Positions 52,003 through 56,290 of a stretch of DNA of 64,000 bases are shown here, in pieces (positions within the stretch are counted from its first letter, which is position 1; each line of letters starts with the position of its first letter). Position numbers and translations under genes: made by a program. Where the stretch lies: contig JALKAW010000004.1 of assembly GCA_023015825.1 (NCBI GenBank), forward strand, positions 124,001 through 188,000. The letters are read 5' to 3'. The notes under the pieces are model-generated. The model made no database searches and had not been told where the DNA came from. It was given only the letters and a program-made list of their open reading frames with translations. This DNA is from Flavobacteriaceae bacterium S0862. GTDB lineage: Bacteria; Bacteroidota; Bacteroidia; Flavobacteriales; Flavobacteriaceae.

Positions 52003-53877
52003 ATGAAATATTCTCTTTCGTTTTTTTTATTTTTTTGTTGGCTCCAAAGTTATTCTCAAGATTTGGTTAATTCTGAAATAAAAAGTAATTACCAACAAGG
52101 TATAGCCTTTCTTGAAGAAAAGAAATTTGATAAGGCAATAATTAGTTTTAATAAAGGCATAAAAGTTTCTAAATCTTTGGATAATGCAGCATTAATCGCT
52201 CTTGGCCAATTTAATCTAAGTGAATGTTATTTAGCTCTAAATAAACACCTTGAATCTATTAATACTGCTAATGAAGCTTTAATTCTATATAAGCGTTTGA
52301 AAAGAAATATCGAAATATCCAACTGTTATGCAAGACTTGGAGACATATATTTTAAAATTTCAAACTTTGACACGTCGCATAACTATTATTTTGAAGCCTT
52401 AAAAATTAAAGAGCAGCTAAACGACGAACTTGGTATTGCTGAAAACCTTGTTAGCATTGGTAAAATATATAAAATCACACCTGACCCAGATTTAGATCTT
52501 CCAAAAGCAAGGGTGAATTTTAACAAAGCATTAAAAATTTATGAAAAGCTTGGTCATCAAGAAGGAATCATTTATAGTTTGACAGATATTGGAGCAATTA
52601 ATTTAAAAGAAGGGATTAATCACTCCGATCAAGAAAAAATAGTAAAAGCTATTGATATTTTTAAGCAAGCTTTAGTAAAAGCTGAAAATTTAAAATTAGT
52701 AAAAAGTCAAGCTATATTGTTAGGTAATATTGGACCTTCTTTACGAATGCTCGATAGAAATGAGGAATCTCTTGATTATTTATTTAGAGCATTAGAAATT
52801 AAATTAATTCTTAAAGATTCCACAAGTGCAGCACATTCTTGTAACGATATATCGGAAACATATATTGCTATGAATGATTTATATAACGCGAAGAAATATG
52901 CATTAAAAGCTGTTGATTTGGCAAAGGGAGTAAGCCTCAATCAAGAGAGGTTTGCTTTTTATTTACTATCTGAAATAAACAATAGCTTAGGTGATTATAA
53001 AAGTGCAAACAATGATTTAAAGCAATTCTATAAGTTAGCGGATAGTATATTTTCAGCACAAAAAATGATGAAAATTAATGAGAACCAAATTAAATATGAA
53101 ACTGAAAAGAAAAGTCTCACCATAAAAGCGCAGGAAAGTGATATTGCATTGCTCAATGAGAAAAACAAGGTAAAAAATCAGTATATGGTTTTGGGCACAT
53201 TTGTGTTAATTTCTGTATTTGGCTTTATTATTATTGTAAGGTCCAGAAACAGAGAGAAGCACAAGCAATTACTGCAAGCACAATTTTCTAGAGATTTATT
53301 GCAATCACAAGAAGAAGAAAGGATCCGTATTGCAAAAGATTTGCATGATAGTGTTGGACAACAACTAACCTTAATAAAAAAGAAATCTCAAAAGGTAAAT
53401 CAGGAAGAAATTAGCCAGCTTACCAATAATGCACTGGAAGATGTAAGAAGTATTTCAAGAGGGTTGTATCCAGCTATGCTCCATCAATTTGGATTAACAG
53501 ATAGTATTGAACAATTAATATTAGATTTTGACGAACAGACAGATTTATTCTTTTCATCAGACATTGCAAACATAGATGCGTATTTAAATGAAGAAGAGAG
53601 TTTAAATTTTTATAGATTTATGCAAGAGAGCCTAAGTAATGTTGTGAAGCATTCTAAGGCCAAGGCTGTTTCAGTTTTTATTGAGAAACTACAAGATAAA
53701 ATTTCAGTCTCCATACAAGATAATGGGATTGGTTTCATTATTAATGAAGCCAAAAAACAAAATAGCCTAGGATTAAAAACACTTGCTGAACGAATTGAAA
53801 TATTAAAAGGGAAATTTAAAATTGATAGTCAACTCAAAAAAGGCACAACACTTTCTGCTATAATACCGACAGCATGA
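52003..53877 (+). CDS. TPR-domain sensor histidine kinase (NarX/LiaS type)
   Basis: 624 residues. Signal peptide (MKYSLSFFLFFCWLQSYSQ), about seven TPR units (about 30-340) in the periplasm, a coiled coil and one membrane helix (about 390-410). The HisKA_3 motif RIRIAKDLHDSVGQQLT and the HATPase N-box MQESLSNVVKHSKA with DNGIGF follow. The family senses through the TPR part and phosphorylates a LuxR-type regulator, here the next gene, which overlaps by 4 bases. Confidence 0.92.
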   Translation: MKYSLSFFLFFCWLQSYSQDLVNSEIKSNYQQGIAFLEEKKFDKAIISFNKGIKVSKSLDNAALIALGQFNLSECYLALNKHLESINTANEALILYKRLKRNIEISNCYARLGDIYFKISNFDTSHNYYFEALKIKEQLNDELGIAENLVSIGKIYKITPDPDLDLPKARVNFNKALKIYEKLGHQEGIIYSLTDIGAINLKEGINHSDQEKIVKAIDIFKQALVKAENLKLVKSQAILLGNIGPSLRMLDRNEESLDYLFRALEIKLILKDSTSAAHSCNDISETYIAMNDLYNAKKYALKAVDLAKGVSLNQERFAFYLLSEINNSLGDYKSANNDLKQFYKLADSIFSAQKMMKINENQIKYETEKKSLTIKAQESDIALLNEKNKVKNQYMVLGTFVLISVFGFIIIVRSRNREKHKQLLQAQFSRDLLQSQEEERIRIAKDLHDSVGQQLTLIKKKSQKVNQEEISQLTNNALEDVRSISRGLYPAMLHQFGLTDSIEQLILDFDEQTDLFFSSDIANIDAYLNEEESLNFYRFMQESLSNVVKHSKAKAVSVFIEKLQDKISVSIQDNGIGFIINEAKKQNSLGLKTLAERIEILKGKFKIDSQLKKGTTLSAIIPTA

Positions 53878-54521
53878 TGAATCATAAAATTAAAATATTA
53901 GTAGCAGATGATCATCCAATGCTACTTAAGGGCTTGATAAACGAATTAATGGATCAAGGGTTCAATGTGCTAGAAGGAGCCTCTAATGGAGCTCAAGCGT
54001 TACATACTATAGGCTCTGAAGTGCCAGATATTGCAATTATAGACATTAATATGCCGTTGCTTAATGGTTTTGAAGTTGTCAATAAATGTAAAGAAAAAGG
54101 AATAAGCACGCGTTTTATTATTCTTACTTCTTATAAAGAGAAGAGTTACATATTAAAAGCTAAAAAATTAAATATTTCAGGATATTTGTTAAAAGACGAA
54201 CCATTTATTGAAATTAAAAGATGTATTCAGTCTGTATTAAAAGGTGAATTTTATGCCAGCAAAGTTTTTAACCAAATAGTTAATACTGAAATTTCACCTC
54301 AATTAGAAAAAATTAAACATCTCTCTCCCTCAGAGCGTACCATAGTTAGGTTAATTGCTCAAAATAAATCATCAAAAGAAATTGCAGACCTTCTTACTAT
54401 TTCACACCGCACAGTACAAAAGCATAGATCCAATATCATATCGAAATTGGATTTACCATCAGATTCTGATGCGCTATCACATTGGGTGTTGATAAACAAA
54501 GAACTTTTAATTTCAGTCTAA
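53874..54521 (+). CDS. NarL/LuxR-type response regulator
   Basis: 215 residues. Receiver with DDH (12-14), phospho-Asp 57 (IIDINMPLLNG) and LLKDEP near 108; GerE/LuxR helix-turn-helix (about 150-205) with LSPSERTIVRLIAQNKSSKE and LTISHRTVQKHRSNI. Starts within the kinase stop (ATGA). The likely target is directly downstream, where four TACGTA-like boxes lie before the next gene (54554-54590). Confidence 0.93.
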   Translation: MMNHKIKILVADDHPMLLKGLINELMDQGFNVLEGASNGAQALHTIGSEVPDIAIIDINMPLLNGFEVVNKCKEKGISTRFIILTSYKEKSYILKAKKLNISGYLLKDEPFIEIKRCIQSVLKGEFYASKVFNQIVNTEISPQLEKIKHLSPSERTIVRLIAQNKSSKEIADLLTISHRTVQKHRSNIISKLDLPSDSDALSHWVLINKELLISV

Positions 54522-54553: not shown

Positions 54554-54590
54554 TACGTACCTATACGTATTTTATGTACTACCCTACGTA
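54554..54590 (+). promoter_or_regulatory. Array of TACGTA boxes, candidate LuxR-type regulator sites
   Basis: TACGTA at 54554-54559, 54564-54569 and 54585-54590, with a variant TATGTA at 54573-54578. The start points are about 10, 9 and 12 bp apart, so on nearly one face of the helix. It lies between the regulator stop and the secreted-protein gene at 54653, where an activator site would be expected. Confidence 0.55.
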
Positions 54591-54652
54591 TTTCTTTTTC
54601 ATATGATGAAATCTACATTTACATCATATTAATCATTTAAAACTTCTGCATC

Positions 54653-55159
54653 ATGAAAACAATTGTATTAGGTCTGTTAATTATTGGATTTACCACCCAA
54701 ATACACTCCCAAACAAACAATCTGTCAATTTTTAAAAATATTAAGTATTTAGAAAAGGTCAAAAATGAAGGTAGCCCAGTAATTATTAAAAAAATGGAAA
54801 ATATAGCTGCAGAATATGACATTCAAAAGGCTGATGTATTTAATCCAAAAAGGAAAGGTACTTACGATGTGACTTTTGAAGAGACTAGTGGGAAAATTGT
54901 AGCTACGTACAACAAAAAAGGCAAGCTAATTAAAACCATTGAGGTTTATAATAATTTAAAGCTACCGCTACAAGTAAGTAAAAGTATTTCTAAAGAATAC
55001 CCAGGTTGGATTTTTACCGGAAACACTCATGAAGTCTTATACAACAAAGGAAAAGTAAAGAAGCTTTATCGCATTCAAATAAAAAATAATAACTCGAAAA
55101 AAGAATTGAAATTTGAATTAAAAAGTGGCGCAGAAGCCAATTATGCGGCTGTAAACTAA
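54653..55159 (+). CDS. Secreted PepSY-like protein
   Basis: 168 residues. Signal peptide MKTIVLGLLIIGFTTQIHSQ. The C-terminal ~90 residues show a PepSY-like pattern (YDVTFEETSGKIVATYNKKG, LQVSKSISKEYPGWIF, and KVKKLYRIQI). Such domains are small periplasmic proteins that may inhibit peptidases or bind envelope proteins. It is the likely main target of the TPR kinase/LuxR regulator pair next to it, and has its own terminator. Confidence 0.7.
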   Translation: MKTIVLGLLIIGFTTQIHSQTNNLSIFKNIKYLEKVKNEGSPVIIKKMENIAAEYDIQKADVFNPKRKGTYDVTFEETSGKIVATYNKKGKLIKTIEVYNNLKLPLQVSKSISKEYPGWIFTGNTHEVLYNKGKVKKLYRIQIKNNNSKKELKFELKSGAEANYAAVN

Positions 55160-55232: not shown

Positions 55233-55260
55233 AAATCCCTTTCTTTCGAAAGGGATTTTT
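55233..55260 (+). terminator. Terminator after the PepSY-like gene
   Basis: AAATCCCTTTC-TTTC-GAAAGGGATTT followed by TT, a strong 11-bp stem 73 bases after the stop. Confidence 0.75.
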
Positions 55261-55381: not shown

Positions 55382-56290
55382 ATGAAATTAATAATCTGTA
55401 TAGTTTTTATTTTTTGTTCTTCCATTGAAGGATTTACCCAGTCTATTACTAAGTTTCCCGATTCTAAACCATTTCCGTATTCCTTAATTGAAGATGACTC
55501 TTTAATAGTGTCTAGAGAAGGAAAATCAAATAATTCAACAGACATAAAAAGTAGCCATTGGGATACAACTAAGTTTAATCCTTATAAAGAAGAACTTGTT
55601 AAATTTCCTATTCAAATAAAATTTAAAGATAGCCTATATCGTACACCAATTCTTGATAGCATGGTAATTACTTCAAGATTTGGATGGAGAAACCGAAGAG
55701 CACATAAAGGGATTGATATAGACTTAATTACTGGAGATGATGTCGTGTCTATTTTGGATGGTGTTGTTCGTTTTGCACGATATCATTCTGGACATGGTAA
55801 AGTAGTTATAGTACGTCATTATAATGGTTTAGAAACGGTCTATGCACACTTGTCTTCGTTTGCAGTAAAAGTAAATGATTCTGTAAAGCGAGGTCAAGTA
55901 TTAGGAAAAGGTGGTGCAACTGGTAATGCACGTGGTAGCCATTTACATCTCGTTGTTAATTATAAAGGTGTAGCCATAAACCCAGAATATTTATTTGATT
56001 TTAGTGGTACCAATAAAATTAGATCCGATGAATTATGGGTTACCCAACGTTGGACAGCTCCATATTATCATAGTTCAAAAAGAAAAACTAAGCTAGAATT
56101 GCTTCAGACTGAACAAGAAGCTATTGCAAGTCTAACAAAAGAAAAGCAAATCTATATTGTTAAACGTGGCGATACATTATCGCGTATTTCCAGACGCAAC
56201 AATGTATCCATTAGGGCTATTTGTGTAGCTAATAATATAAAAAGTACGAGTGTTTTAAAAGTAGGACAAAAACTTATACTTGAGATGTAA
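55382..56290 (+). CDS. M23 family peptidase with C-terminal LysM
   Basis: 302 residues. Signal peptide (MKLIICIVFIFCSSIEGFTQ). M23/LytM domain (about 98-205) with SRFGWRNRRAHKGIDIDL, VYAHLSSF and SHLHLVV, giving the HxxxD and HxH zinc ligands. One LysM (about 256-302: YIVKRGDTLSRISRRNN, VLKVGQKLIL) binds peptidoglycan. It should be a secreted cell-wall endopeptidase or an EnvC-like activator; the intact zinc ligands favour an active enzyme. Confidence 0.9.
   Translation: MKLIICIVFIFCSSIEGFTQSITKFPDSKPFPYSLIEDDSLIVSREGKSNNSTDIKSSHWDTTKFNPYKEELVKFPIQIKFKDSLYRTPILDSMVITSRFGWRNRRAHKGIDIDLITGDDVVSILDGVVRFARYHSGHGKVVIVRHYNGLETVYAHLSSFAVKVNDSVKRGQVLGKGGATGNARGSHLHLVVNYKGVAINPEYLFDFSGTNKIRSDELWVTQRWTAPYYHSSKRKTKLELLQTEQEAIASLTKEKQIYIVKRGDTLSRISRRNNVSIRAICVANNIKSTSVLKVGQKLILEM

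Follow-up and report, generated by a model that had tools for sequence, protein, structure and literature searches.

TACGTA box arrays behind a NarL-type regulator gene of Flavobacteriaceae as a probable activator operator, with a candidate family of feedback small RNAs

Directly behind the gene of a NarL/FixJ-type response regulator in Flavobacteriaceae bacterium S0862 (GCA_023015825.1) lies an array of TACGTA boxes, found in a 64,000-nucleotide stretch of contig JALKAW010000004.1 (positions 124,001 to 188,000 of the forward strand; hereafter the window, whose own numbering is used throughout). An earlier note, made from the letters of the window, described the array as a helically phased activator site of the neighboring regulator. 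We found this to be right and larger than stated, the array being part of a TACGTA system that extends through the family and includes a candidate family of feedback small RNAs (sRNAs); the promoter register, the related sRNAs and a set of small proteins go beyond that note. Sequence comparison makes it probable that the array serves the response regulator encoded next to it as a conserved operator for activation.

The array is composed of three exact TACGTA palindromes, box 1 (54554–54559), box 2 (54564–54569, 10 bp after box 1) and the promoter-proximal box 3 (54585–54590, 20–21 bp after box 2), together with a TATGTA box at 54573–54578, none of them assigned to a strand. It is positioned as the earlier note placed it, between the regulator gene and a secreted-protein gene, with 32 nt separating the regulator stop codon (end 54521) from box 1 and 62 nt separating box 3 from the ATG at 54653. 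The three TACGTA and one TATGTA within 37 bp are where they were described, but the reported step of about 10 bp is loose, since the start-to-start distances are 10, 9 and 12 bp. TATGTA was rejected as a fourth working box because it is not conserved, being present only in the window and L068 among seven aligned loci. As a single hexamer, TACGTA is no more frequent in the window than expected (8 versus 8.9). Among 300 shuffles that preserved dinucleotides, none contained three TACGTA in 37 bp and one contained a pair at 10 bp. An extra exact TACGTA at 54904–54909, inside the coding region of the secreted protein, is probably there by chance.

The boxes are conserved behind orthologous regulators. 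Scanning named genomes with the regulator gave seven close relatives (L062–L068, 59–76% identity), and in six of these all three boxes are retained exactly downstream of the regulator gene, with box 2 always 10 bp after box 1 and box 3 always 20 or 21 bp after box 2. Absence of the boxes from orthologous intergenic regions had been named in the earlier note as the result that would speak against an operator, and it is presence that prevails. Across the seven sequences (window and six orthologues) the boxes are identical, and pairwise identity around them is 0.36 in the 10 bp upstream, 0.54 and 0.51 in the two gaps and 0.39 in the spacer after box 3.

The last box stands in a fixed register to a promoter element. 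A −7-like element, read from the sequence as TACATTTA (54614–54621, plus strand), lies exactly 23 nt after box 3 and is followed by the start region CATCATATTAATC (54622–54634, plus strand), which bears a resemblance, and a resemblance only, to CA.TGCTATTAAT of the candidate sRNAs described below. The register was evaluated in 31 regulator loci (window type and 20 fetched loci, with four that have sRNA-model hits excluded and L068 not included), where the pattern [TGC]A..TTT[AG] follows the last box at 23 nt in 10 cases; no other spacing between 8 and 44 nt has more than three. The housekeeping promoter consensus of Bacteroidetes has TTG near −33; in the sRNA promoters the third base of this triplet position is G at 0.40 and T at 0.52. 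The main text of a promoter map of Flavobacterium psychrophilum (PMC9723704) gives TAnnTTTG as the Bacteroidetes −7 element and TAnnTTGY as a motif termed SM5. The window element TACATTTA is close to TAnnTTTG with A as its last base, the base that predominates there in the sRNA promoters (0.95 at −5), and the sequences at the −7 place of L063 (TATCTTGC), L066 (TATATTGT) and L067 (TATATTGC) fit the SM5 motif as given there (PMC9723704).

The same spacing of boxes is enriched throughout the family. In a survey of 149 family genomes, TACGTA-N4-TACGTA, the pair at 10-bp spacing, occurs at 240 places, versus 28 for pairs at 11 bp and 19 at 9 bp (hand counts), which supports the helical phasing claimed earlier; a reversed-pattern control gave 51 places, and kinship between genomes is ignored in all these pair counts. 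The regulator clade, called at E≤1e-30 with a paralogue of the window regulator (L002) as query, is found in 79 of the 149 genomes, and the mean number of exact pairs per genome is 2.65 in these versus 0.44 in the 70 others, the control giving 0.39 and 0.29 respectively.

The window regulator (53874–54521, plus strand) is composed of an N-terminal receiver domain (REC; Response_reg, PF00072, 7e-22) and a C-terminal GerE (LuxR) helix-turn-helix domain (PF00196, 2e-14), the combination that marks the NarL/FixJ type, so that a GerE-type regulator does stand next to the palindromes as previously described. The closest solved chain by sequence is NarL (1a04, 7e-27), none of the best 25 of 86 NCBIfam models reaches its cut-off, and the genome has 21 NarL-type regulator matches at E≤0.001. 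The recognition helix reads TVQKHRSNI and shares the pattern TV.KH.S.I with that of the paralogue (L002, C22), which has its own TACGTA pair and candidate sRNA; residue 3 of the helix (E versus D/H) agrees with the box variant in 32 of 36 loci. Its position in these variants and its co-occurrence with the boxes make the regulator the natural candidate binder, and we infer that the window regulator binds and activates here.

The box pairs behind the paralogue and behind regulators related to it lead into short units, for example GCTATTAATTAGTTCTTAGGGAGAATTAT, with an intrinsic terminator after them; the 13-bp terminator stem shows compensatory changes in 10 of its 13 pairs in an alignment of 19 sequences. 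A covariance model was built on the RNA alone, with the boxes outside it, although the 19 training RNAs were picked for having boxes and loci L013–L042, obtained by the TACGTA pattern, are a biased sample. At E≤0.01 the model has hits in 68 of the 149 family genomes. At E≤2.5e-5 it has hits in 47, of which 45 have the regulator, and 64 of the 75 hits at this threshold are found downstream of the regulator gene, no more than 700 nt away and in the same orientation (45 genomes, one to four per genome). Box positions were compared for 81 of 109 hits (73 distinct, 19 training), the 28 weakest, many of them antisense, having been dropped beforehand. Of 54 held-out hits, 48 have the two boxes, with at most one mismatch, precisely at −51 and −41 (20 of them exact), and no other offset from −75 to −17 occurs in more than one hit; for held-out rows from loci found by the RNA model alone (L124 on), 37 of 41 pass by hand count. 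The usual neighborhood, judged by eye from translations, is tatD, a retropepsin-like gene, the regulator, the sRNAs and odhB.

These units are predicted to be transcribed as sRNAs, the one behind the C22 paralogue with a length of about 70 nt. A known Rfam family was rejected, since no candidate reached a gathering score when 20 loci were scanned against Rfam 15 (E≤1; four matches overall); in that scan only an L19 leader in L006 passes its score, and a sub-threshold Thr_leader match (26.8 of 55 bits, E 0.76) overlaps the candidate RNA in L023. An open reading frame (ORF) within the sRNA was also rejected, an ATG after AGGGAG being present by eye only in some copies. A search for the sRNA outside the family, run with strict filters on 247 genomes drawn from the class, gave a hit at E≤1e-4 only in the window's own genome, at least six other genomes of the same family being without one. 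Elsewhere in this genome (G000:C11:55550-56100; L154, about 1310–1880) lie three tandem short units that start with GCTATTAAT and have no TACGTA; two share the upstream sequence TCGAAAAACACAA, two are by eye clearly terminator-ended, and they may form a further group of sRNAs with a different regulator. A dedicated seed role of GCTATTAAT is weakened by the three RNAs of this genome that share it without TACGTA.

Two conserved elements of the candidate sRNAs have complements in the leader of the regulator mRNA. Of 37 leaders of sRNA-type regulators, 20 carry TTAATAGC, the complement of the sRNA 5′ end, and 18 carry TCCCT, the complement of the hairpin loop (either in 30, both in 8), the predicted pairing partners being GCUAUUAA/TTAATAGC and AGGGA/TCCCT. 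Among 520 other leaders in the fetched loci, used as the control, TTAATAGC occurs in 2, TCCCT in 13 and either in 15, and at least three of the 13 are themselves regulators missed by the filter (L063, L098, L151). Retropepsin leaders (n=41) have TTAATAGC in one, TCCCT in three and either in four, and leaders of window-type and related regulators (n=8) have none, one and one. For leaders in genomes without the sRNA the hand count is 0 of 16 for TTAATAGC and 1 of 16 for TCCCT, a figure confounded by these leaders being, by eye, the 3′ end of a kinase gene; two of four leaders with weak sRNA hits carry one of the complements. By duplex energy the regulator leader is the best of its locus in 28 of 38 cases, three of which have no other leader for comparison. 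The presence in the leader of complements to conserved sRNA elements suggests that the sRNAs feed back on the regulator mRNA, through a pairing that is predicted from the two sequences and that may turn the regulator down again.

Other outputs appear where a strong sRNA hit is absent. The regulator clade (E≤1e-56) occurs in 26 such genomes, from which 20 regulator loci were taken. Four have weak sRNA-model hits (L167, L172, L174, L181), and in most of the remainder the regulator seems, by eye, to follow a kinase. TACGT[GA]-N4-TACGTA stands behind the regulator in several of the 20, the −7 pattern is found at 23 nt in seven (L166, L168–L171, L178, L179), and in eight (L166, L168–L172, L178, L180) an ORF of 36–46 amino acids (aa) with one hydrophobic stretch lies directly behind the regulator.

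In the mechanism that we propose, the TPR kinase encoded upstream would phosphorylate the regulator, and dimers of the latter would then occupy the TACGTA palindromes, which lie on one helix face at distances of 10 and about 20 bp. From the last box, 23 nt before a TAnnTTT-type −7 element, the regulator would contact RNA polymerase around −33 and so turn on the secreted PepSY-like gene. Throughout the family the same regulator clade would use a promoter behind its own gene whose product varies, being a PepSY-like protein (window, L062, L068), a membrane-type protein of about 40 aa, or one to four sRNAs that are complementary, in their conserved 5′ end and hairpin, to the leader of the mRNA of that regulator. 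What these variants would have in common is a feedback output beside the regulator. We judge the full model to be slightly better than an even proposition. In this model the gene of a NarL-type regulator is immediately followed by a class II-like promoter with paired TACGTA boxes, whose feedback product (sRNA, about 40-aa membrane-type protein or secreted PepSY-like protein) was exchanged in the course of evolution; the sRNAs would be a new feedback family with several copies, whose AGGGAG hairpin is directed against a C-rich stretch immediately upstream of the start codon.

Several observations weigh against these interpretations. L064 has no boxes, a convergent gene lying directly behind the regulator there, and of three more distant relatives at 49–57% identity, L096 keeps only two boxes, 21 bp apart and 16 nt behind the regulator, and L095 and L097 have no TACGTA behind it; 7 of the 20 fetched loci likewise lack TACGTA within 500 nt (L165, L173, L175, L176, L177, L182, L183). 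The exact pair is absent from 21 of the 79 genomes with the regulator clade, and five genomes without the clade have at least three pairs. The sequence after box 3 in the window is TTTC and lacks a TTG. Window-type output varies, with a short terminator-ended RNA in L063 and L066 and a large secreted protein in L065, and TACGTA is missing from the 300 nt upstream of four PepSY-like relatives encoded elsewhere. The preference for regulator leaders in duplex energy is only moderate (mean z −1.3; 12 of 38 in the best 5% of shuffles). Recognition-helix covariation was rejected as proof of the binder, the agreement with the boxes being nearly one clade and one event on the tree; a tree-aware paired test was uninformative.

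The best-placed alternative, which we nevertheless regard as unlikely, is that the array is a true operator used mainly by another protein, for example the C22 paralogue or an unrelated factor, the neighboring regulator being there by synteny. The presence in this genome of a paralogue with the shared helix pattern beside its own TACGTA pair and sRNA is compatible with such a user, as are the TACGTA-pair promoters that precede unrelated genes; it is countered by the recurrence of three-box arrays directly behind the window-type regulator gene in six of seven close orthologues. Rather less likely still is a repressor operator, through which the regulator or its unphosphorylated dimers would shut the PepSY-like gene. 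A protein on the last box, which borders on the −33 region, could stand in the way of polymerase, but the fixed 23 nt to −7 elements that in the sRNA promoters are often off consensus (GAnnTTTA, CAnnTTTA) is what activation predicts. We think it improbable that the window array chiefly makes a short RNA, with the PepSY-like gene read through or served by its own promoter: in L063 and L066 the same array has behind it GCTATTAAT and a short RNA that ends in a terminator, and the start region in the window looks like the 5′ end of the sRNAs, but no sRNA-model match is present in the window at E≤0.05 and no terminator-like site lies between the array and the ORF. A chance cluster in AT-rich intergenic DNA, which the ordinary frequency of the single hexamer might have allowed, is rejected as having almost no probability by the shuffles, the exact boxes in six of seven close orthologues and the 10-bp excess in 149 genomes.

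The presumed product of the array promoter is the secreted 168-aa protein (54653–55159, plus strand). The AlphaFold2 (AF2) model of this ORF has moderate confidence (pLDDT 71) and the element order helix, three strands, helix, three strands, an order that agrees with the repeated helix and antiparallel strands of the DUF2874 fold; its best Foldseek match is DUF2874 (4ipb), with a probability of 0.97 but an E value of 0.03. The protein weakly resembles DUF2874/BLIP-like folds, and the likeness to the PepSY-like, DUF2874 and BLIP-like secreted proteins of Bacteroidetes lies in the order of fold elements and the best Foldseek matches. It differs from them in that no Pfam or NCBIfam family matches at E≤0.001 and in the moderate model confidence; the label "PepSY-like" given earlier has weak fold support and no family match. 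A terminator-like hairpin follows the gene (55233–55258, plus strand), and beyond it the next gene downstream encodes an M23 peptidase with a LysM domain (55382–56290). Upstream, the regulator gene overlaps that of a sensor histidine kinase (52003–53877, plus strand), an ORF with Pfam TPR_12, HisKA_3 and HATPase_c domains and, read by eye, a signal peptide and a transmembrane segment.

TACGTA pairs are also found in other settings. In L018, L026 and L035 a pair lies directly upstream of another LuxR-type regulator gene, with starts that read by eye MDIINVVLADDH or MDVINVVLADDH, and autoregulation is possible there. Another pair promoter has TAACTTCG at the −7 place, both in this genome (L003, L005 on the minus strand, L006) and in G135 (L044, L045, L046, L049), where the copies carry the repeated leader TTTAACTATCGATATAGATAATTGAAACAATCCATATCG. 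These promoters precede unrelated genes, by eye trmD, an amidohydrolase, a methyltransferase-like and a nuclease-like gene, and the TAACTTCG/TTTAACTATCGATATAGATAATTGAAACAATCCATATCG unit is perhaps a mobile cassette leader. A third group behind TACGTA pairs (L021, L050, L052; G135) has approximately the sequence TTTATGCCTAATAATTAGGCTAATAATTCCTGTTATCCC, in which the eye discerns a short inverted repeat, and in L001, L039 and L048 a pair lies about 120–150 nt upstream of GCTATTAAT, followed by the protein start MKKL.LS.AAL.

Like other NarL/FixJ (LuxR/GerE) regulators such as NarL, VraR and DesR, the window regulator has REC and GerE domains and, as its presumed sites, helix-phased palindromes; it differs in its tandem TACGTA at 10 bp, NarL sites being TACYNMT heptamers. 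Qrr RNAs are activated by the regulator LuxO, and both Qrr and OmrA/OmrB feed back onto the mRNA of their own regulator. OmpR with OmrA/OmrB, as described in part of PMC12692685, likewise has regulator-activated sRNAs. From both of these systems the present one differs in its NarL-type regulator, TACGTA boxes and Bacteroidetes-type promoter, and in a feedback that is predicted. The csRNAs of CiaRH in streptococci, as outlined in portions of PMC3091779 and PMC8186281, also place several related small RNAs under one two-component regulator; the differences are another phylum, complements in the regulator's own leader, most copies directly behind the regulator and no Rfam match at gathering score in the 20 loci. 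As these sources describe them, the csRNAs and OmrA/B are known cases of multicopy sRNAs under the control of a regulator. The Flavobacterium psychrophilum promoter and sRNA map with its RNAs Rfp1-89 (PMC9723704) has a −7 element, TAnnTTTG, to which that of the window is close, and the SM5 motif, which suits L063, L066 and L067; TACGTA and LuxR each have no occurrence in its main text, and the candidate sRNAs, compared with that main text alone, may overlap an Rfp RNA. Nothing relevant on TACGTA in Flavobacterium was apparent from literature listings and the openings of abstracts. As far as the literature, in the parts named, and Rfam comparison could show, neither the operator nor the sRNA family nor the exchange of outputs has been described before.

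NarL-type regulators are numerous in the genomes of this family, and to our knowledge no binding site is known for them. One NarL-type clade gains here a candidate site, a base-exact promoter register and a family-wide target set that includes a candidate sRNA family, and the window locus is directly testable. The mRNAs of the phylum are described in the available text of PMC6847099 as being without Shine-Dalgarno sequences, and the predicted feedback between the sRNAs and the regulator would offer a simple entry to sRNA pairing in such a phylum.
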